Shown here: positions 2,670-39,109 of the stretch, piece by piece
Numbering within the stretch: the stretch's first letter is position 1
Layout: each line of letters starts with the position of its first letter
Virus record (IMG/VR): IMGVR_UViG_3300025030_000088
Span: 1-64,000 of that record
Direction: 5' to 3' (one strand)
Length of the DNA: 64,000 nucleotides
Origin: a virus
Translations under genes and position numbers: made by a program
The notes under the pieces: generated by a model
Databases searched by the model: none
Told to the model about the DNA's origin: nothing
Seen by the model: the letters and a program-made list of their open reading frames with translations, nothing else

Positions 2670-3992
2670 TTATTGTAAATTTAATTCTCTTTGAAGAATA
2701 GATTCGATGTTGTCAAAGTCATAATACCAAATTTCTAATAATTTTATATTGTTATCAACACAATATTGTCTTTTTCTTCTATCATGCTCTAATTGTTTTT
2801 CAAAATCCTTTTTTGACTTATGGAAACCTTTTATATATCTCTCATGTTGTTCGCCTTGATATTCTATAAGACCATATTCTGGTAAATAAAAATCATAAGA
2901 TAATAAACCATTGTTTAATCCAACTAAACCATCAAATTCTTTTTGTGGAATATAGTTTATATTTTTATTTATAAAATAATTACTAATTCTTTCTTCACCT
3001 TTGGAATATGCACACTCTGGGCATCTAAAATCACATTTATTAGAATTACAAATATCTCTAATATAATCATCATGTTTTCCATTAGGACATTTCCAATATA
3101 CTTCTTTATCACTTTTAGGTGCATACTCATATGGCGATTTTTTATTTTTATCAGACCATAATTCTAAAGATTTTGGAAATAATGTACCTAAGCTATCTAA
3201 TGAATGTACCTTGCCTCCACGTTTACTACAATAAGAACATCTGTCACCCATAATAAATCGATAACAACTTATATCATAATTATTATGATATTTTTTTTCT
3301 TGACATCTTATCCAAACTTTTCTTGTATTATTACATTTACTTATATCCCAAGGATTAATTGTATTTTTCTCACAATCCCAATACTTCTCGAAGAAATCAA
3401 CGCCTAAATTATCAATTCCCCATTGAGCAAAGGAATTACATAGTTTACAATCCATACTTCCTTCTTGTCCACTTGTTAAACAATTAATTTGTTTTAATTC
3501 GCTTTTATGTATTCCCATTGGGCATTTAAAATAATATTTTTTATCCACCCCATATGTAATTTCACTGTGCTTGCAATCATTTAATTCATAATCCCAACGT
3601 AAAAGAATATCCTGTTTATTATTTTCAATACACCATTGCTCAAAAGATTTGCTGTTTTTTAATTTAGTTTTTTTATATGTTGGTCTTCTAAATAATTTAT
3701 TGGCACATTTTTGACAATAATATACACCATTTTCTCCAACATATCTTTTATATGCTTGCCATATAACATTTTCTATTTTTCTCCCACAATCATCACATTC
3801 AATATTTACTAAAGCATGACTATTATCTAATAAATCTTCAATTTTTACCAATATGGGGTTTGTAGTATCATATACTAAAATATTTTTTCGTTGAGAATGT
3901 TTTTTCTTCGGAATTATATATCCTAAATTTTCATAATGTTTTGTATTTACCCCATTCATCTTAACTAACACTGTTTCATTTATCAATCCCAT
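2670..3992 (-). CDS. Zinc-ribbon homing-endonuclease-like protein (Vsr/PD-(D/E)XK type)
   Basis: 440 aa, ATG start after AAAGGAGG. An N-terminal module of about 100 aa (GYIIPKKK, ILVKIEDLLD, CDDCGRK, CQKCANK) is shared with the endonuclease-like gene at 10990-12648. Repeated CxxC-type zinc ribbons follow, with YFKCPMG and YWKCPNG repeats. The C-terminus carries a nuclease-like fold: FDGLVGLNNGLLSYDFYLPE, then IEYQGEQHER and HDRRKRQYCVDNNIKLLEIWY, as in DUF723/Vsr-like endonucleases. It is inserted among structural genes without disrupting one, so it is probably a free-standing homing endonuclease. Confidence 0.7.
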   Translation of the reverse strand: MGLINETVLVKMNGVNTKHYENLGYIIPKKKHSQRKNILVYDTTNPILVKIEDLLDNSHALVNIECDDCGRKIENVIWQAYKRYVGENGVYYCQKCANKLFRRPTYKKTKLKNSKSFEQWCIENNKQDILLRWDYELNDCKHSEITYGVDKKYYFKCPMGIHKSELKQINCLTSGQEGSMDCKLCNSFAQWGIDNLGVDFFEKYWDCEKNTINPWDISKCNNTRKVWIRCQEKKYHNNYDISCYRFIMGDRCSYCSKRGGKVHSLDSLGTLFPKSLELWSDKNKKSPYEYAPKSDKEVYWKCPNGKHDDYIRDICNSNKCDFRCPECAYSKGEERISNYFINKNINYIPQKEFDGLVGLNNGLLSYDFYLPEYGLIEYQGEQHERYIKGFHKSKKDFEKQLEHDRRKRQYCVDNNIKLLEIWYYDFDNIESILQRELNLQ

Positions 3993-10989: not shown

Positions 10990-12648
10990 CTATCCAACTA
11001 ATTTTTCATAATCTGATTTGTACATCCATTTAAAACCACCTGCATGATTATATTTACCAAGACAACAAGAAGAAATATTTGAATGATTTATTTTTAATTG
11101 TCTTTCTGCTTCAATAATACTATCAAACTCCGAAATATATTCTTTATTTAGTGATAGTTGAACAACTTTTTTAACATATGGAGATTTTTTATATTGTTTT
11201 ATTTCGCTTTTATTATAATCTGAAAGAAACATCCATTGATATCCACCAGCAGATTTTAATTTACCTCTGCAACAAGATGAAATACTCATAATAATAATTC
11301 CTGTTTGTTTTTCAGCTTCAACCATGCTACTATATTCTTGAACATATTCACCACTTAACGACAATTGAACAACTGGTTTCGCCCCTGATTTTCCTAATCT
11401 TACCCCACTTGCTTTTTGTATTTCATTGGCATCATAATCACACCACCCCAATTTACTACATTCATTAAGATATCTTATAACTGTTCTCTTTCCTAAGTTC
11501 AGAATAACACTAATTTCTGATGAATTTTTAATTCCAGCATTCCATAATTTAGATGTTTCTTTTACTAAATTGTTACAAGCAAACTCATGACATTTTAACC
11601 AATCAATATTAGATAAATCAAATATCTGTGCTAATCCACTAACTAAAATATTATCTCTAATATATTTCATATCTGATTTTACACAATCAATTCTAATCAT
11701 CTTAATATTATGTTCTTTTGCTTTTTTATCTTTATAATCATCTATAGCTTGAGATTCTTCAGGGGTGGTTCCATCTAATGTTTTTTTATTACCATGTCCC
11801 AATGCTCTATCCATTTCAATTATATATTTTTTATTATTAAATTCAAAATAACTATCATATCTCTTAGGTTTAATCCAATCCGGTGAATATTCGAATTTTA
11901 TATATTTTAATTTGTATGTATTATTTAATTGGTTTAATAAATTACGTCCAAACTTATTGGGGTATGAAATATTATCTCCACAAATAGAACATCCCACTTG
12001 CCCACGTGTAATAGCATTCATACTTCTTTCAAATATATGATTACAGTCTAAACATTCCCATTTAAGTTTTACATCATAGCCAATGTACTCATCACTCAAT
12101 CTAATATTATAATTATTTATTTTACACCAATTATTAATATTTTGATATATGTATATATTAGATTTATAAAACCCTTGTGGTATATAACCTTTTTTTATGC
12201 TGGAAATTTTAATTTTACTATACATATATCCATCCGAATTAATTAAATCTACATTAATTTGAGTATTTATTATTTTAACATTAAGTAATTTCCAAGTATC
12301 TCCTAAGTTATTATTAATTATTTGCTTAACTTCTTGTGCTTTAATTCCATTAATATATAATGAATTAAAACAATTTATACAATAATGTTGTTCATCGTCT
12401 TTAATATATTTTCGATAATCATTCAATGCTATTGTTTTTAAATATTCTCCACACTCATCACATCCAATATCAACTTGCACCTTATAACTATCTAATAAAT
12501 CCTCTACTTTAACTAATATTTTTGTATTCTGTGGAACTGACAACCTTCCTTGATTATCTTTTTCCCTTGGTATTATATATCCTTTATTTTTATACCATTT
12601 AATATGTCTTCCACTTAAGCCAATTTCTACTTCTTTTGTTAGCAACAT
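10990..12648 (-). CDS. Homing endonuclease (PD-(D/E)XK-type) with two NUMOD1 repeats
   Basis: 552 aa, ATG start. The N-terminal 100-aa zinc module (GYIIPREK, ILVKVEDLLD, CDECGEYL, CINCFNS) matches the 2670-3992 protein. A CxxC ribbon (CLDCNHIF/CSICG) precedes a Vsr-like nuclease core with KRYDSYFEFNNKKYIIEMD and ALGHGNKKTL (a D...E...H pattern) and IKMIRIDC. A helix-turn-helix follows (AGIKNSSEISVILNLGKRT). Two NUMOD1 repeats end the protein (VVQLSLSGEYVQEY...GGYQWMF and VVQLSLNKEYISEF...GGFKWMY). It is free-standing between portal and protease genes and has its own promoter. Confidence 0.85.
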   Translation of the reverse strand: MLLTKEVEIGLSGRHIKWYKNKGYIIPREKDNQGRLSVPQNTKILVKVEDLLDSYKVQVDIGCDECGEYLKTIALNDYRKYIKDDEQHYCINCFNSLYINGIKAQEVKQIINNNLGDTWKLLNVKIINTQINVDLINSDGYMYSKIKISSIKKGYIPQGFYKSNIYIYQNINNWCKINNYNIRLSDEYIGYDVKLKWECLDCNHIFERSMNAITRGQVGCSICGDNISYPNKFGRNLLNQLNNTYKLKYIKFEYSPDWIKPKRYDSYFEFNNKKYIIEMDRALGHGNKKTLDGTTPEESQAIDDYKDKKAKEHNIKMIRIDCVKSDMKYIRDNILVSGLAQIFDLSNIDWLKCHEFACNNLVKETSKLWNAGIKNSSEISVILNLGKRTVIRYLNECSKLGWCDYDANEIQKASGVRLGKSGAKPVVQLSLSGEYVQEYSSMVEAEKQTGIIIMSISSCCRGKLKSAGGYQWMFLSDYNKSEIKQYKKSPYVKKVVQLSLNKEYISEFDSIIEAERQLKINHSNISSCCLGKYNHAGGFKWMYKSDYEKLVG

Positions 12649-22299: not shown

Positions 22300-23094
22300 T
22301 TATAATGGTTTATTACTATTTTCTATTTTCCTACTTTTATCATATTCTCTTTTCCACAACTTATTTTGTTCTAATTTATTTATTTTAGCACAATCACTAC
22401 AATATTTATTTTTATTATTTCTCATTATAATTAATCTACAACAATTATTTCCTTCACAAACATCAATTCTATAACCTTTCCAATCTAAATATTCATATAT
22501 AAAATCTATAAAATCAATAATTTCAATAGCAACTTTACCTTCATCTTTTGCAAATAAAACTTTCATATTAGTACATTCAACTTTTCTTGACACCTCTATT
22601 AATTCCATATCTTTTAATTTATTAATCATTAAACCTTGATCTTTTTTACTTATTGCCATTTTTGTATCACTAAAAATATCTTTTAAACTTGAATTAACCC
22701 AATTAGCTTTATTTTTATTCATTTGATTATATATTTTAGAATAAACAAGTAAGACAAAAGCTAATTTTTCTAATCTTAAATTATTAATACTATTTATAAT
22801 TTCTAGTTCATCTTCATATACTAATATATTTATAATATAAAAAAATTCATAATCAGATAAATTACTAACTTGTTTTACAATATTCTCAATGGTATTTTTC
22901 CAATTCATAAAATTATATTTCTTATAATTATTGCTCATAAAATTATCAATAGAATCAATAACTTGTTCCTTATCTTGACCAATCTTAAAAAAATGTTTTG
23001 CTAATAATTTTATTGTGATACTTGGTTTATCATCAACATATCCATCATTTAATGATTTATTTAATAATACTTTTTCATTCAATATTATTTTCAT
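22300..23094 (-). CDS. Zinc-ribbon hypothetical protein
   Basis: About 264 aa from the ATG at 23094, after GGAGG, overlapping the polymerase stop by 20 nt (coupled translation). Helical throughout (LEKLAFVLLVYSKIYNQM). The C-terminus has a zinc-binding pair, CEGNNCCRLI and NKYCSDCAKIN, followed by a Lys/Arg-rich helix, typical of small DNA- or RNA-binding ribbons. The coupling suggests it works with the polymerase, perhaps as a specificity or accessory factor. That is inference; the family is not recognised. Confidence 0.55.
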   Translation of the reverse strand: MKIILNEKVLLNKSLNDGYVDDKPSITIKLLAKHFFKIGQDKEQVIDSIDNFMSNNYKKYNFMNWKNTIENIVKQVSNLSDYEFFYIINILVYEDELEIINSINNLRLEKLAFVLLVYSKIYNQMNKNKANWVNSSLKDIFSDTKMAISKKDQGLMINKLKDMELIEVSRKVECTNMKVLFAKDEGKVAIEIIDFIDFIYEYLDWKGYRIDVCEGNNCCRLIIMRNNKNKYCSDCAKINKLEQNKLWKREYDKSRKIENSNKPL

Positions 23095-26000
23095 TAATAT
23101 CCTCCGTAAACATCGAAAATTTATTACCACCAAACTCAATATCACCAAATTTATTTAAAATAGGGTATGATACAATATAATTATTATTTTTTAATAAATT
23201 GTTAATAATTATATCTCCACAAATATCCCATGCAAATTGTTTAGAATTATTATTCTTGTAGCAAATACTAATTACAATATTACATAATTCTTCAGCATTA
23301 CTACATAATTCATATGCTTTTTTCTTAAAAGTATCTTTTAAAATTTGTCTATGTATTTTATTTTCTTCATTATCAATTCTTTTACTTTTTATATTTTGAG
23401 AATATTGTTGTGTTTTTTCAGTATAATCTTGATATAATTTATTAATAGCATTGTATCTACCTTTAGAATATTTACTATTTGTCATTAGTATTGAATAATC
23501 AAAATCATTATTATTAATTATATTATAATTATCAAACTCTTTTTCAATTCTCCAACAAATACGATTCATCACAGATTTACTTATAGATACAGGCATTTTA
23601 ATATAATACCATTTAAGATATTCAATTTGTTCCTCTGTTTTATTTTCTAAACTTATTAACTCATCTATGGTTATACCGAATCTCATAAGACAAGTATTTT
23701 TAGTTTGGTTTATATATCTATCATATACTTTCTTCCTATATGGATATATATAATTAAAAAAATAAGGTTTTTTATTTGCTACAATACTCTTATCAAAATC
23801 ACTAATAGCAGAACGATAATCATACCATTCTTTAGGTATTTTTTTACTAACTATACCTTTAATTTTATCTATCGCATTTTGTTGATAATTTTGCCCACAC
23901 ATAATTCTATTTAATACTTCTTTATATTCTTTACTATCTTCTTTAAATTTTACTAATACATCAAACATTGAAGTGATATGATTTGTTGTTACACCTATAT
24001 CATCTCCAAATCCATCTTTATTTGATTTTATAAAATCTTTTTTCTTAGGAATTATTTTATCTGCTGTTTTTTGCACACAAAATATTGCATCTGTTTCTTT
24101 AATGGAATTAAGTATCGTAGAATTATTAGTTGTAAATACACAATCACTCGATTGTACCCCTGCTTTCGCAGTATTTCAAAAGGGACTAGACTATATCATC
24201 ATCCTTAAAAAATTAAGGAGTCCGGCACTTCGATTTAAGGGAATTTCACCCACTGTATCGCTACAGTCCTACTCCTATTGTGGAATTTCACCACTATTTC
24301 AGGATAGTCGTTTAACGATTATCTTAATAATTATTAAGATTTCGCACAGGATTATCATATGTGTGTTTATTTATATTAATTTAACTAACAAATTTATAAT
24401 AATGTTTTAAATATGATTTATTATTATTAATACTTAGTATTATATTACCTCTTATAGAATCAACTTTTGCTTTTGTAAAATTATTATCCCTTAAATATTC
24501 TGCACAAGCACCTATATATTCAAAAGTATCTATATAATTATTATTAATATCATATAATTGTATTTTTCTTGCTCTGCCATTTTGCTCTTTTGGTCTAGAA
24601 TTATTTAGTTTTGCTAATTCTGGATTATTCATGTATTTTAATTTTAAACTATTATTGTTATAATTTGGATTATTTTCACCTTTCATTCTTCCATCTCTTG
24701 CAATATGTCTATTATGTAAAACTGTATATTTAATATTATATTCATGTGTTTCCCACTCTAAATTATCGACATGATTATTAGTTCTATCAAAATCTTTATG
24801 ATTAACTTCTGGATAATTATTAATATTATTAATAAATAATTTTGCAACCAATCTATGTAATCTTTCAGTTATTCTACAATCATTTTTCCCAACAGTTACA
24901 CAAACATATCCATCTTTATTTAATCTAGTTTTTAATAATTTTCCAGAACTAACTCCTATAATATTACCATAATTACTAACCTCATAATCCAGACCATTTA
25001 TATTAATATTTTTCCAAACTTCTATATTTTATTCCTCCTTGATTATAAACACACACTTAGACTTCCCCTGTTAGCCACATTGTTAAGTAGTCATTTCCTA
25101 CTACAAACAATTAAGTCAATGTGACACCTTGCTCTGCAAGTTCACCGGATTTTTCATATGTTATTACTAACATAAGGGACTGTAATCAATCCTTATCTAA
25201 ACCATTTAAAGCATGAGCAGTAGTATCCCATGAATTAAAAATTGTAATTGTATTCATATATTTATACCATTTTCGCATATCTTCTGTATTCTTCAAATTT
25301 AATATTCTAATATTATTGTGACAAGTCATAGGAGCACGAAAACAAGCAACTTTATCTACATCTAAATCATTCCAATATTTAGAATAAAATTCTCCTTCTT
25401 TTAACAAACCTGTTACTTCCATTCCAAATATATTTTGACATAAACTAAAAATATCACCTGAAACAATAGAGTAATTTGCCTTTGTCTTTAATACACCTAT
25501 CTTAGCATCTTTAATTCTTTTTTTAATCGTATTATGTATTTTATTTTTGACAAAAGAATCATCTATCATTCTTTTATCAATCATTAACGCTTTAATAAAA
25601 TCATTTTCTTCATTATTAAAATTAATTTTATCTAAATGTATACCTTTAAGAAATAATATACTTTTTCTATAATCCTTACTAATAATATCATGTATTTCTT
25701 CTGTCGTTGGTTTAATTAACTGTTCAATACCTTCAGTATTTAAGTATAAAGATTGCAAAAATTGGTAATTTGTATGTCGTTCATTTTCCAATACTTTAGG
25801 TGTATGTTTTGTAATACTAAATGAATATCCATTATTTTTACAACAAGATAGATAATGTTCAAGTGAATCATAAGAATCCCAAAGTTTAAGCATTGAGGTT
25901 GTTAAAATTAATTCTATATTTCTAATGTCTCTATCTTCATTCCAAACATCCTTAACTATATATTTTTTATTTGCTATATTTTTTGCAAAATCTTGGAAAT

Positions 26001-26862
26001 TAAACGAAAAAATCATGCCTTTACAGAAAGAATTACGCAGACAATATCCACTAGGTATAAAATATTCTTTATCTTCTTCATCAATACTTTTATCATTATT
26101 AATTTCTTTTATCCATCTTCTACTTAATTCAGGTGAGATAATACCATACCCATCACTATCATTTAATTCAATAGGATAATCTTTTTCATATACAATATCA
26201 GGATACTCTGATATAGTATCATCTATTTTAATTACATTTGCTTTAAAATTTGTTATACAGTCATTTACAACTAGTATTCCTTTTGGATCTGATACAGGAA
26301 TACTAGAAGAAGTAACTAAAGATTTATATGATTCTAGTTTTGCAGGTATAAAATTATTATTCATATTTCTACCATTATCTATTTTATTTTCTAAATCTTC
26401 ATAAACATTTTCACTAACATAAGTTATTGTATATTTTTTTACTCCTCCAGGAGTGCCTAGTAGATGTTTAAATTTAACACCGTTAATATAAAATCCTTTC
26501 TTACTATTCATTCTATCAAAATCTTTATTGTTATCTATTACTATACAAACATAATCCTTTATCAATAATAAATCATATATTTTATTATATAATGATTTAA
26601 TTTTTCTACGATTATCAATAGAAGTAGGTAGTTTTTTTATCTTGCTTATATCCCTATAAACATTATTAACTTTTTCATATATAGATTTAGTGTTAACTTT
26701 ATTTATAATATCTATAAATCTAATTAATGCACTTTCTGCCAAAGAAACTAATTCATTTTTATCAGATGCTTCATCAATACTAATATTTAAATTCCATTTT
26801 GATTTTCTTAATCTAGTAGAATTAATTTTATATATGTATCTTTGTGGTGGGTAATTTGACAA
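23075..26862 (-). CDS. YonO-like single-subunit RNA polymerase, split by a group I intron
   Basis: Exon 1 is 26862-25189 (558 codons) and exon 2 is 24148-23075 (357 aa), 915 aa spliced. TTG start after AAGGAGG. The region GDIFSLCQNIFGME, GLLKEGEFYSKYWND, VACFRAPMTCHN and TAHALNGLDKDSDCVF matches the double-psi barrel RdRP/QDE-1-like polymerases, of which YonO of SPbeta is the phage DNA-dependent example. The catalytic DxDxD is residues 556-560 (DKDSD) and exists only after splicing. YonO has 838 aa, so the length is compatible. It transcribes phage genes in SPbeta; a similar role is inferred. Exon 2 is coupled to the zinc-ribbon gene. Confidence 0.8.
24149..25188 (-). ncRNA. Group I intron with HNH gene, inserted in the polymerase active-site codons
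   Basis: 1040 nt. The 5' exon ends ATAAGGAT and the intron has CCTTAT, forming P1 with the exon. Near the 3' end are the conserved core elements: TTAAACGACTATCC (R, P7 5') and GATATAGTCTAGTCCC (S, P7 3'), with GACTA/TAGTC pairing. It ends in the expected G at 24149. Splicing joins GAT and AGT GAT on a codon boundary. Confidence 0.85.
24381..25025 (-). CDS. Intron-encoded HNH homing endonuclease, AUA start
   Basis: About 214 aa. AGGAGG is followed after 8 nt by ATA (25025-25023); no AUG, GUG or UUG fits that position. The N-terminus is a NUMOD4 motif (VWKNININGLDYEVSNYG). The HNH core reads RLHRLVAKLFIN, PEVNHKDFDRTNNHVDNLEW, and a C-terminal NUMOD1-like segment (KIQLYDINNNYIDTFEY) follows. 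It is inside the polymerase intron and would spread it to intronless alleles. Confidence 0.8.
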   Translation of the reverse strand: MEVWKNININGLDYEVSNYGNIIGVSSGKLLKTRLNKDGYVCVTVGKNDCRITERLHRLVAKLFINNINNYPEVNHKDFDRTNNHVDNLEWETHEYNIKYTVLHNRHIARDGRMKGENNPNYNNNSLKLKYMNNPELAKLNNSRPKEQNGRARKIQLYDINNNYIDTFEYIGACAEYLRDNNFTKAKVDSIRGNIILSINNNKSYLKHYYKFVS

Positions 26863-30248: not shown

Positions 30249-32231
30249 TTATGTATTTTTATTATTCAATCTTTTCTCTGCAATATCACAATAATCCTTA
30301 TTCATTTCAAATCCTATATGATCAAAACCCGATTCTCGACAAGCAAGAAATGTTGTACCTGAACCTTCAAATGGGTCTAAGCATATACCATTAGGTGGAG
30401 TAACTAATGTGACTAAATATTTAATTAATGATAATGGTTTGACGCATGGATGATTATTTCCTTCACCACGTTCCTTTTTACTTGCTTTAGCACAATACAT
30501 AAAATTAATATAATTTCCTTTTTTCTCTTTGATATTCTCTGTGATATTTATTATTAGATTCTTTGTTGATATATCTCCATTCTCGTAATTTTTCTCTTGA
30601 ACAATTTTTACAATATCCTTGATAACATTCATTTCTTTTATAAAATTCATTAATATTTTTATATTCTCCACAGTGTTGACATTTTCTATATTCAATTCCA
30701 TCAATAATTTTATGATCTTTTCTTGCATCTCCATGTAATTTATTATGTTTATATTTTGATAATAATTCCAAATTTTCAATTCTATCGTCAGATTTGTCAC
30801 TATTAATATGATGCACTTCAAATCCAACAGGAATTTCTCCATAGTTTTGTTCCCATATATATCTTGCTCTACGTTTTGAATAAATTTTTCTATCTCCTGG
30901 ATTACGCCATTTAATGTACCAACGACCTTCAGATTTTCTATAATATTCCCACATATATAATCATCCTCACAATATAATATATTTAAAAAATATCTACTTG
31001 CTCCACCTGTATCACCATGTTGATTTTGTAATGTTGATTTACCTCTTAAAAATCCCGTATTAGATTCTCCTTTATAAGCATCTTTATTTTCTTTTACTTT
31101 TCCACTTTTAGTAATACCACTTTGCAAATCTAATATTTTCCCTGCTTCTTCGTCCATAATTATATTTGCAGGGAATCTACCTTCATTATTAACACATTCT
31201 CTTGCTTGGTTTAATGGTGTACTACCTGTACCATATAAAGTATCTGATGTACCAAATCCTATTGATTTAGAATTCTCAGTAAAGTTACATTTTGCTTTAA
31301 CAATTTTTAAATCTTCTTCTGATTGATATTCAACCCTACAATCATCAATATTAATTCCACCAGTGTTCCATTTTAGAACATTATCTACTATAGTTTTTTC
31401 ACTTAGAGGTTTTCTTGCTACTATAATTGGTTCGTGTGCTGGTTTAAGGGATGTACCGTATCCAGACCATTGCTTTGCTTCTTCTGTTGCTAAATCAAAT
31501 AATTCTTCTGTTTTTGAATTTGATTGTGAACCAACAATTTTAGCAAAATCATTTCCACCACTTCTTTGATGCACAATTTCACCAATCTTTTTACCTTTTT
31601 TGCTAATAAATTGTTCTCTAAAATATGGTTTGTCCTGCAATATTTCTTCTAACAATAAATATCTTTTTTCATTGGGATTTTGAGGACAAGGAGTATTAAT
31701 ACCAATCCAATGATCTATTTGTCTAGGTGTTACATTACAATGTTTTGCAACATCTTTTTTATCTAAATTTAATAATTCCATTCTTTTTAAAATCCATTCA
31801 CCTATATTAACTTTACATCTTCTTTTTTCCATTTCTTTTGAGATATTCATTGATTTGGGAAAACCAGTCGAATAGATCCAGTCAATTTGATCTCTAATTT
31901 CAAATACTGCTAATCTTAAACTTATACACATTAAATCATATGTACGTGTTCCAGCAAAGCATAATAAGTATCCTCCTGGTTTTAATACTCTATATGCTTC
32001 TTTCCATATAGAAGGATTGGGAACAAATGAATCCCATGCGACATTCATAAATCCTTTTGAATTATGTATGTATTCTTCATTGTTTAACCAGTTAGTTAAA
32101 ACCTCTACTATATTTGGCTCTTTAGATAATCCGTAAGGTGGGTCGGTGACAATTGATGATATAGAATTATCTGGTAGTAACTTCATACCTTCTTTACAGT
32201 CTTGATTATAGATTTTATTTAGTTGTAGCAA
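30249..32231 (-). CDS. Beta-type DNA methyltransferase with an internal HTH and an HNH insertion
   Basis: 660 aa, TTG start after AAGGAGG. DPPYG (residues 30-34) comes first and FEGSGTT (about 620) last, the beta-class order of N4/N6 amino-methyltransferases. Around 140-210 is an unusual insert with a helix-turn-helix (LDKKDVAKHCNVTPRQIDHW). Normal flanking sequence ASRYFLN then FYCAKASKKERGEGNNHPC is separated by about 155 residues (about 421-578) that are encoded by the same DNA as the HNH gene 30505-30954, read in another frame. With the insert removed the length would be about 505 aa. The enzyme may protect phage DNA; it lies alone, without a cognate restriction gene. Confidence 0.85.
   Translation of the reverse strand: MLQLNKIYNQDCKEGMKLLPDNSISSIVTDPPYGLSKEPNIVEVLTNWLNNEEYIHNSKGFMNVAWDSFVPNPSIWKEAYRVLKPGGYLLCFAGTRTYDLMCISLRLAVFEIRDQIDWIYSTGFPKSMNISKEMEKRRCKVNIGEWILKRMELLNLDKKDVAKHCNVTPRQIDHWIGINTPCPQNPNEKRYLLLEEILQDKPYFREQFISKKGKKIGEIVHQRSGGNDFAKIVGSQSNSKTEELFDLATEEAKQWSGYGTSLKPAHEPIIVARKPLSEKTIVDNVLKWNTGGINIDDCRVEYQSEEDLKIVKAKCNFTENSKSIGFGTSDTLYGTGSTPLNQARECVNNEGRFPANIIMDEEAGKILDLQSGITKSGKVKENKDAYKGESNTGFLRGKSTLQNQHGDTGGASRYFLNILYCEDDYICGNIIENLKVVGTLNGVIQEIEKFIQNVEQDIYGNKTMEKFLLDLKCIILIVTNLTIELKIWNYYQNINIINYMEMQEKIIKLLMELNIENVNTVENIKILMNFIKEMNVIKDIVKIVQEKNYENGDISTKNLIINITENIKEKKGNYINFMYCAKASKKERGEGNNHPCVKPLSLIKYLVTLVTPPNGICLDPFEGSGTTFLACRESGFDHIGFEMNKDYCDIAEKRLNNKNT
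30505..30954 (-). CDS. HNH endonuclease nested in the methyltransferase gene
   Basis: 149 aa, ATG about 10 nt after GAGG. Core is ARYIWEQNYGEIP, EVHHINSDKSDDRIENLELLSKYKHNKLHG, a full HNH motif, followed by a CxxC ribbon (CQHCGEYKN...CKNCSREK). Its stop overlaps methyltransferase codons. The methyltransferase frame stays open through the whole gene, so the DNA would be translated in two frames if both proteins are made. Confidence 0.8.
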   Translation of the reverse strand: MWEYYRKSEGRWYIKWRNPGDRKIYSKRRARYIWEQNYGEIPVGFEVHHINSDKSDDRIENLELLSKYKHNKLHGDARKDHKIIDGIEYRKCQHCGEYKNINEFYKRNECYQGYCKNCSREKLREWRYINKESNNKYHREYQREKRKLY

Positions 32232-37178: not shown

Positions 37179-38051
37179 TTAGTCCATAATTAAATTTTCT
37201 TGTATAAATTTCCAAGTAAATATATTTATATTATTAATTTTAGCATGTTCTAATATTTTATTTAATAAAAATTCAAAACCTTCTTTTGATATAGAAGTAA
37301 TAAAATTTGTTATTGGAAATTTATTTTTATTATTATTTAAAATTTTCTTTTCAAATTTAAACATTCTACTATCATTTATTAAACATTTATTTTTATTATT
37401 TAATATGCCCATATGTCTTAAAAGTAAAAATGTATCTGTTGTATTAAATCCAATATCTTTTAGTACATTAGACAATCTTATAAATTCTTCATTAAATATA
37501 TAATTATTACATATATTTTTAACAATATTTTTATTTTCTTCATTATACAATAAATTTATATAATTTTCATTACTTAATTGAGATATATCTAATTTAGGTT
37601 TTACATTTTCTTTTAATGAATTTCTAGTTGGAATATAAATACCTTTATTTTTTTTAATATTTTTTATTACACTTTCTAATATACTAACAAAATTCTTATT
37701 AGGATCAAGAGTATTAAAAATTTGTTTTTCACCTTTTAATACTAATTCCAAAGTATTTTCAACATTATAACCATCATCAATACTATTATATTGTTTTATA
37801 TATTTATCTTCTAATATGTATAATAAGCATTTTTGTATTATTGGTTTTAAATCTTTGTCTATTTCCTCCAATACTTCAAATTTAAAATTATCTTTACCAT
37901 ATGTATTATAATCTTTTTGTAATTTATAACTATGATGATTGCCACATTTTAATTCTTTCTCATGTTCATTCCATCTTTCTTCAATATTCATAGATTCACC
38001 TATATACACCTTACCATTTATTATATTAGTAATTTTATATACTCCTATCAA
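37179..38051 (-). CDS. GIY-YIG endonuclease
   Basis: 290 aa, TTG after AAGGAGG. The first 90 residues are a GIY-YIG nuclease: GVYKITNIINGKVYIGES, ERWNEHEKEL, LQKDYNTYGKDNFKFEVLE. The C-terminal 190 residues are Asn/Lys-rich with no recognised DNA-binding motif. Probably a free-standing homing-type nuclease, or a phage nuclease in an isolated unit with its own promoter at 38166-38194. Confidence 0.75.
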   Translation of the reverse strand: MIGVYKITNIINGKVYIGESMNIEERWNEHEKELKCGNHHSYKLQKDYNTYGKDNFKFEVLEEIDKDLKPIIQKCLLYILEDKYIKQYNSIDDGYNVENTLELVLKGEKQIFNTLDPNKNFVSILESVIKNIKKNKGIYIPTRNSLKENVKPKLDISQLSNENYINLLYNEENKNIVKNICNNYIFNEEFIRLSNVLKDIGFNTTDTFLLLRHMGILNNKNKCLINDSRMFKFEKKILNNNKNKFPITNFITSISKEGFEFLLNKILEHAKINNINIFTWKFIQENLIMD

Positions 38052-38263: not shown

Positions 38264-39109
38264 CTACAATCCAATCCTCAAATTATTAATTTTCTTCTTA
38301 ATATTTTCTTTTCTTGCTTGTGCATAAATGCCTACGGTATTTAGTTTGCTATGACCGAGTTGATTCTGTAATTCTGGTAATGTAAAAACTCCTTGTTCTA
38401 TTGCACTCGTAGCCATATGATGTCTTAATTGGTGAATTCCAACCTTACAATCATCACCATAACTATTAAATATATAATTAATTGTACTTTTATCTAATTT
38501 CTCACTTCTTTCAGATAAAAATATATATTGACTACTAGCAAATTTATGTTTCTCTCTAACCTCCAAATAATCTTTAATAACTTTTATTGCAACATCATTT
38601 AACAATACAGTTCTTTCCTTATCACCTTTACCAATTAATTTCAATTCTCCTTTTTCTATATCTAAATTTCTTAATTTCAAATTTGTAATTTCTTCTCTCC
38701 TAATTCCTGTATGAGCAATAAGAAAAACAATAGCAATATTTCTATCTCTATGCAAATTATATTTATTACTAACTTTATCTAAAAATTCAGACACTTGTGA
38801 TTCTGTTATATTTGTTGGATTGCCTTTACCTTGTATCTTAATAAAATCCCTTTTAATAACTTTTATACTATCAATTAACCCTAACATTAATAAAAATTCA
38901 TTAAATGATTTAATTGCAGATAATTTTCTATTAATAGAGGAAGATGATAAATTATTAATCTCTTCCTTATATTTAATAATAGAATCCCTACTAATATCAT
39001 CATGTAAAGTAAAGAAGTGATTTAAGTCTGACACATATGATGATATTGTATTATTTGATTTTGCTTGATTAATTAGATAATTTTTGTATTGTTCAATTTT
39101 ATTTTTCAT
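38264..39109 (-). CDS. Tyrosine recombinase (XerC/integrase family)
   Basis: 281 aa, ATG after AAAGGAG. N-terminal SAM-like domain (about 1-95). Catalytic residues are visible: Arg in HTGIRREEI (about 134), Lys in GKGDKERTVL, HQLRH (226-230), LGHSKL (His 253) and nucleophile Tyr 262 in VGIYAQ. It is shorter than typical phage integrases. It could integrate the element or resolve plasmid dimers. It diverges from the ribbon-helix-helix gene and shares its control region. Confidence 0.9.
   Translation of the reverse strand: MKNKIEQYKNYLINQAKSNNTISSYVSDLNHFFTLHDDISRDSIIKYKEEINNLSSSSINRKLSAIKSFNEFLLMLGLIDSIKVIKRDFIKIQGKGNPTNITESQVSEFLDKVSNKYNLHRDRNIAIVFLIAHTGIRREEITNLKLRNLDIEKGELKLIGKGDKERTVLLNDVAIKVIKDYLEVREKHKFASSQYIFLSERSEKLDKSTINYIFNSYGDDCKVGIHQLRHHMATSAIEQGVFTLPELQNQLGHSKLNTVGIYAQARKENIKKKINNLRIGL

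Follow-up and report, generated by a model that had tools for sequence, protein, structure and literature searches.

A probably mobile group I intron in the catalytic aspartate triad of a YonO-like viral RNA polymerase

Introduction

What kind of element lies between the codons for the catalytic aspartates of a viral RNA polymerase, and what does its presence there mean for the enzyme? The question is raised by 64,000 nucleotides of the IMG/VR virus record IMGVR_UViG_3300025030_000088 (this whole stretch is called the window here), in which a YonO-like RNA polymerase gene on the minus strand is divided into two exons, 26862-25189 and 24148-23075, by an insert of 1040 nt. A model that read the letters alone had proposed that the insert is a group I intron with R/S core elements and an HNH gene, that it splits the DxDxD triad at a conserved active-site codon, and that polymerase activity, and with it late transcription, is gated by splicing. 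Judged from its sequence, the insert is indeed a group I intron, and we estimate a probability of roughly 0.9 that it is a mobile one with an HNH frame, reflecting recurrent homing into the triad of QDE-1/YonO-like polymerases.

The importance of this position is apparent from YonO of SPbeta, a member of the same polymerase family with an essential Asp triad: the enzyme no longer extends RNA when the three triad Asp are substituted, and without yonO 37 SPbeta genes remain silent (PMC5467207). The SPbeta-type rows of our dataset, unlike the window, have no triad intron.

Results

The split polymerase gene

The gene and its insert are laid out as follows; positions are those of the window, and a slash within a motif marks the point of insertion.

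25189-26862, minus strand: exon 1 of the YonO-like RNA polymerase, residues 1-558, start codon TTG, C-terminal LDKD
24149-25188, minus strand: group I intron, 1040 nt, at DxD/xD, directly after the second Asp codon of the triad; boundaries from L003
23075-24148, minus strand: exon 2 of the polymerase, residues 559-915 plus stop, N-terminal SDCVF

By eye, AGGAGG lies upstream of the TTG start of exon 1. This exon ends in ...ALNGLDKD, its last codon, GAT (25191-25189), being followed immediately by TGA in the intron, and exon 2 opens at 24148 with AGT GAT TGT GTA TTT (SDCVF); the joined exons encode 915 amino acids, with DKDSD as residues 556-560. The boundaries are exact because they come from comparison with the closest relative, the IMG/VR contig L003, which is intronless and reads ...ALNGLDKD-ADAVF across the junction with no gap. 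Exon 1 shares 77% protein identity with L003, and exon 2 shares 91.5% DNA identity over 1044 columns starting 33 nt past the junction. The phrog_8308 profile is likewise continuous, exon 1 aligning up to its position 552 and exon 2 covering 553-824, which bears out the predicted split DKD/SD. An unspliced message would hit a stop directly after the second Asp, and therefore no intact triad is obtained without splicing. A megablast comparison of 19 kb of the window with named phages gave no match, in a set that may omit near records.

Exon 1 matches the Pfam RdRP family PF05183 (E=3.3e-9; 36.4 bits, cut-off 23.8), the annotated yonO of SPbeta-type phages (tblastn; 7e-19, in H9) and a gene of Enterocloster phage PMBT24 that is annotated as an RNA-dependent RNA polymerase (tblastn); the PMBT24 protein, when used as the query in a viral scan, found no relative. 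D556, D558 and D560 occupy invariant columns when four uninterrupted proteins, one of them real YonO (DNDGD), are aligned, and the three triad Asp are also invariant in 34 homologues aligned from the loci described below. The homologues, YonO among them, thus align at DxDxD across the junction as had been anticipated, and the insertion lies at a conserved active-site codon. Since a phmmer search of the polymerase against PDB sequences gave no meaningful match and was uninformative, a fold comparison was used, with a structure model of L003, a natural intronless homologue of the window's spliced protein (predicted local distance difference test score, pLDDT, 90.9; predicted template modelling score, pTM, 0.84). 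The L003 model folds like QDE-1 and plant RDR2, with Z 26.9, 612 aligned positions and a root-mean-square deviation (rmsd) of 8.6 against 7w82, and Z 22.9, 647 aligned and rmsd 4.8 against 7y7p_A. By sequence and model, the window polymerase is a YonO-like (QDE-1-type) single-chain RNA polymerase, in agreement with the original prediction; by analogy with YonO (PMC5467207), it would perform DNA-dependent RNA synthesis and may serve late transcription.

A group I core in the insert

The following elements of a group I intron were located in and beside the insert.

25188-25194, minus strand: P1, exon strand AAGGAU/U, paired with guide 25181-25174 (AGUCCCUU); U.G pair at the splice site
25174-25181, minus strand: internal guide sequence, the intron strand of P1, AGUCCCUU
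25145-25149, minus strand: P3 5' strand, TCCGG, partner 24225-24221
24302-24311, minus strand: R element, P7 5' strand, ACGACTATCC
24221-24225, minus strand: P3 3' strand, CCGGA
24186-24197, minus strand: S element, P7 3' strand, GATATAGTCTAG

The intron is preceded by U and its last base is G; P3 forms 5/5 pairs, and a fuller P1 pairing, drawn by eye, requires one bulged C. Because the Rfam score of the insert, given further below, was too weak to decide its class, our own model, R1, was built from 18 related introns, using the region from P7 to P7' and excluding the window. Searched against the 64-kb window, R1 has a sole match up to E=10, at 24312-24188 on the minus strand (E=1.7e-8), and the group I intron with an R/S core that had been proposed is thus upheld by R, S and P3 as well as by the model. 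Against 20 other loci, R1 gave 12 matches in 11 loci, of which the weakest is in L165 (E=0.0038) and two come from the training set (the triad cores of L005 and L011); it gave no match in nine loci with an intronless polymerase (L003, L009, L010, L012, L015, L016, L017, L023 and L153).

The pairing recurs in related introns. As extracted, 20 of 22 triad introns pair 5/5 in P3 (L006 and L192 do not by the extraction pattern, and both were retained in the count), and the introns' own strands form 103/110 pairs, against a mean of 75.9 and a maximum of 90 when partners were shuffled in 10,000 trials. All 22, as placed, have T before the intron and G at its end; placement came from homology, and the ends of the three introns just before the first Asp (site 1) were fixed by this T/G rule. 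All 22 also accommodate a P1 with U.G, which is only a consistency check because the script searched for U.G. The guide varies with the exon, being GTCAC opposite exon GTGAT in L138 and GTCC opposite GGAT in most; the best P1 of L169, at intron position 27, is probably not the true guide. Applied to nine loci at gathering scores, Rfam missed the triad inserts of L005, L006, L011, L032 and L076 and the downstream inserts of L007 and L093; it found a further intron in L076 (92.9 bits). An intein was considered as an alternative and found no support, the insert having stops in all three frames.

Occupancy of the triad in relatives

A further 240 loci (some contigs appear twice) came from three scans of viral contigs and genomes; they comprise the best 80 of at least 192 relatives, the best 80 of 151 and the best 80 of 98, with triad introns in 2/80, 14/80 and 3/80 loci, respectively; the query of the second scan stops at the triad, and its ranking is therefore independent of the intron. 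Three window copies (L001, L002 and L004), two rows without a triad position and four exon-1 proteins shorter than 350 residues were dropped before counting, and the remaining 245 exon-1 proteins were clustered at 95% within each intron state. Of the resulting 184 clusters, 21 have an intron in or beside the triad and 163 do not (L117 duplicates L116, and L006 falls in the L005 cluster). Ten of the occupied clusters carry the intron at the position found in the window, DxD/xD (site 3), eight at D/xDxD (site 2) and three at site 1. All 21 lie within the 142 clusters that score at least 200 bits against the window, 121 of which are unoccupied.

The named hosts of triad-intron loci include Paenibacillus sp. 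SYP-B3998 and a Ruminococcus metagenome-assembled genome. Among six Enterocloster phages, CB473P3 and CB457P1 have an insert at the codon used in the window (DFD/GD), and PMBT24, CB473P1, CB457P2 and CB473P2 have none there; the unannotated record MT835481 carries an insert at the same codon, again DFD/GD. CB473P3 is an isolated phage of Enterocloster bolteae DA473, and its triad intron contains no endonuclease frame. In L220 (5628-6586), R1 detects an intron (2.5e-9) that starts some two codons short of the triad, and exon 2 of this locus is shifted by one base from the reading frame (DFD-GD), an offset that may reflect an error, decay or an unusual junction; this locus was excluded from the 21. 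The polymerase match of L216 (Erysipelotrichaceae OPF54) ends near residue 429 with no downstream part found in the available stretch, which may indicate a truncated gene or another insert, and it was left out of the analysis.

Polymerase inserts longer than 150 nt, counted as gaps between tblastn pieces, cluster at two places, the triad and a stretch 88-101 codons past the first Asp (13 cluster representatives). Two lie elsewhere, namely an insert at -43 in L076 and another of about 192 nt in L233 (3551-3838), far upstream and near the start of a YonO-like gene. The second hotspot, in the ID/KxKG region, is seen in L093 (6762-8051), a YonO-like row whose intron lies 90 codons beyond the triad, and in L005, L007, L099, L129, L162, L165, L193 and L210; R1, although trained solely on triad introns, finds introns there (weakly in L165).

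These data bear on the idea that the gene is permanently split, with two separate chains assembling without splicing. Exon 2 has an in-frame GTG of its own (open reading frame 24076-23075), and PHROGs keeps the two halves as separate families, 25339 and 35857. This GTG, however, is downstream of the third Asp, so that a second chain started there would lack this residue; the break falls inside the triad, the insert has a covarying group I core, and 226/252 related loci are unbroken through the triad. We therefore give the notion of two chains next to no credence.

Mobility of the intron

Accounting for intron presence on the 142-cluster tree takes 21 state changes, a number equal to that of the occupied rows. 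The three insertion positions imply at least three insertions, and for the remaining changes repeated gain appears likelier than loss. The intron cores form three groups: the site 1 introns (support 100); the cores of the window, L192, L011, L005 and L006, all at site 3 (support 83); and the remainder, with sites 2 and 3 mixed (support 96).

Exon flanks were compared in six pairs by counting matches per 30-nt bin outward from the insert. Between the window and L003, the downstream bins hold 17, 26, 30, 30, 30, 30, 29, 30, 30 and 30 matches, and the upstream bins 27, 29, 30, 30, 30, 30, 28, 24, 24 and 22. For L005/L009, the downstream values are 26, 21, 24, 30, 30, 30, 30, 30, 27 and 18, the final drop coinciding with the start of the next intron, and the upstream values are 28 followed by 30 throughout; L006/L009 gives 26, 22, 24, 30, 27, 28 and 30. 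In all three pairs, divergent exon DNA beside the insert turns abruptly into near-identical sequence, and the flanks of the window pair and of the Enterocloster pairs look co-converted. Divergent patches flanking an insert are a hallmark of homing. Coconversion is also named in a paper on the intron of phage PhiPA3 (PMC11620839).

Changes in active-site residues accompany some insertions. The window and L192 read DKD-S-D, with exon 2 beginning AGTGAT, and their intronless tree sisters L003 and L016 read DKD-A-D. L076 and L023 are 98% identical up to residue 502 and 93% identical from residue 641, against 40-66% between; the divergent middle of L076 contains three inserts, the first an intron by Rfam and the second the triad intron, and has DKDGD in place of the DFDGD of L023. 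Ala to Ser in DKD-x-D and DFD to DKD in L076 are two observations, with no trend and with directions that we infer, and they suggest homing as a route by which the active site of the polymerase can acquire altered residues.

The same evidence speaks to the claim that splicing is a regulatory gate, by which the phage delays late transcription through an intron-dependent active site. One part of it stands: an intact triad needs splicing, as the unspliced message terminates directly after the second Asp, and the triad of YonO is essential, with 37 SPbeta genes depending on yonO as cited above (PMC5467207). A control that is conserved should be inherited, however, whereas the closest relative L003 is intronless, 121/142 of the nearest clusters are unoccupied with 21 changes on the tree, and two of six Enterocloster phages carry an intron at this site. 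The sporadic distribution and the apparently co-converted flanks leave regulatory gating unsupported, and we regard it as very unlikely.

The endonuclease frame

Within the intron lies one long frame.

24381-25028, minus strand: NUMOD4 + HNH homing-endonuclease-type frame, 215 codons, no stop

The frame matches NUMOD4 above the cut-off (1.2e-9), HNH_3 slightly below it (23.2 bits, cut-off 24.8) and, in PHROGs, the HNH families phrog_59 (7.2e-32) and phrog_959. Its nearest relative is the frame of L192, from which it differs with nonsynonymous (dN) and synonymous (dS) divergences of 0.27 and 0.73 (dN/dS ~0.37). Long frames occur in 8/22 triad introns, three at D/xDxD and five at DxD/xD, and all 28 pairs among them are related (30-65% identity, worst E 6.5e-16); the domain scan covered the window frame alone among the eight. 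The frame of an HNH gene is thus present as proposed, and a standard start is lacking: ATG, GTG and TTG are absent from the first 40 codons, a point on which the earlier description is corrected. AGGAGG lies 8 nt upstream of an ATA codon in the frame, and the L192 relative has GTG and TTG codons near its frame start. Standard start codons are present in the frames of L116 and L166.

The missing start would also fit a view of the polymerase as a pseudogene and of the intron as a dead remnant. Both exons are fully open, however, exon 1 keeps its 77% protein identity to L003, the triad is retained, and the endonuclease frame is stop-free over 215 codons with a dN/dS of ~0.37 against L192, such that we consider decay of this kind highly improbable. 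Instead, sporadic presence, flanks that look co-converted, and a frame of the homing-endonuclease class with this dN/dS together form the signature of a selfish mobile intron.

Discussion

The reading that we favor is that a group I intron entered the polymerase gene at the codon following the second catalytic Asp. The intron RNA would excise itself, the Asp codon GAU supplying the P1 U.G pair and the intron its terminal G, and the polymerase would thereby be restored. When relatives co-infect, the endonuclease is predicted to cut or nick their intron-free polymerase genes close to the triad, and repair would then copy the intron, together with some flanking exon, into the cut genes. The triad is a good target because it is invariant, and it supplies several GAT/ sites at which P1 can form as well as a recognition sequence that stays the same.

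Several points weigh against this reading. The match of the window intron to Rfam RF00028 reaches 23.1 bits (E=0.0027 in a 1.5-kb stretch) against a gathering score of 50; R1 is not wholly independent because it includes L192, whose intron core is 78% identical to that of the window, and its E-values are rough. The first and third scans were ranked by full-length similarity, which disfavors split genes, and the second retained the loci nearest to the window, so that occupancy is not a population estimate. The tree was made with FastTree, 37/139 of its inner branches are below 80, and gain and loss are indistinguishable on it. L192/L016, one of the six pairs, has no distinct divergent tract beside the insert, and the L076/L023 divergence spans a far longer stretch than a patch. 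Finally, lacking a standard start, the window endonuclease may be poorly expressed or in decay.

Group I introns with HNH nicking endonucleases and exon-flank co-conversion are familiar from the DNA polymerase genes of SPO1, SP82 and Bastille (I-HmuI/I-BasI); these introns are of the type seen in the window and differ from it in host gene and insertion site. The kind of intron is therefore known, and the insertion address is apparently unreported: no report of introns in the YonO-like triad was found in the literature searched, which comprised open-licence papers. Among the nearest precedents, PhiPA3 gp210 is associated with a group I intron that carries an HNH endonuclease and interrupts an RNA polymerase gene of the phage immediately past conserved Asp codons; gp210 nicks the gene of a rival phage and gives an advantage (PMC11620839). 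In that case, the host gene encodes the beta subunit of a multi-subunit jumbo-phage enzyme and the site is next to the equivalent of E. coli RpoB D675 (PMC11620839), in contrast to the catalytic triad of single-chain YonO-like enzymes, which is occupied at three positions in many lineages. The introns of AR9/PBS1 lie in the beta' of a multi-subunit RNA polymerase, where one may also sit at the triad of its enzyme (PMC12350094). The nearest literature further includes the introns of Bastillevirinae (PMC11878797); papers on zeta and Jug phages (PMC12386605, PMC12363816) were also covered.

Another near precedent comes from zeta crAss-like phages, in which stops and frameshifts have been reported within the DxDxD of a QDE-1-like phage RNA polymerase; the passages available from that paper name no intron at DxDxD, and its authors suggest additional unknown expression mechanisms (PMC7886860). 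Intron homing offers a testable cause for these gene breaks. More generally, the loci described here outline a hotspot of three adjacent insertion points, placed where the codons of this ancient family of RNA polymerases are most conserved, with 21/142 of the nearer clusters occupied. There is also a practical consequence in that annotation can split these polymerases, as in five Enterocloster CB records that call the pieces hypothetical proteins.

Cleavage of intron-free alleles by the window endonuclease would make interference between co-infecting phages possible, as for PhiPA3 gp210. A wider proposal is that the triad is a standing battleground, in which endonucleases serve as interference weapons against a stretch that cannot mutate, the intron confers immunity, and active-site residues are exchanged through imported exon; it would also explain the DxDxD breaks of zeta crAss-like phages. 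We put this forward tentatively, and would sooner bet against it than for it.

Other genes of the window

Additional homing-type genes are found elsewhere in the window, all on the minus strand, together with a methylase and an integrase.

2670-3992, minus strand: DUF4379 homing-type gene
10990-12648, minus strand: DUF4379 homing-type gene with NUMOD1 and an I-HmuI-like domain
30249-32231, minus strand: DNA methylase frame (N6_N4_Mtase, best stretch residues 542-653)
30505-30954, minus strand: HNH_3 frame inside the methylase frame, on the same strand in another phase
37179-38051, minus strand: GIY-YIG endonuclease, homing-type gene
38264-39109, minus strand: phage integrase, tyrosine recombinase family

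R1 found no triad-type intron in the methylase/HNH_3 region, where the HNH domain lies upstream of the N6_N4_Mtase stretch. The phage integrase suggests a temperate life style for the virus.

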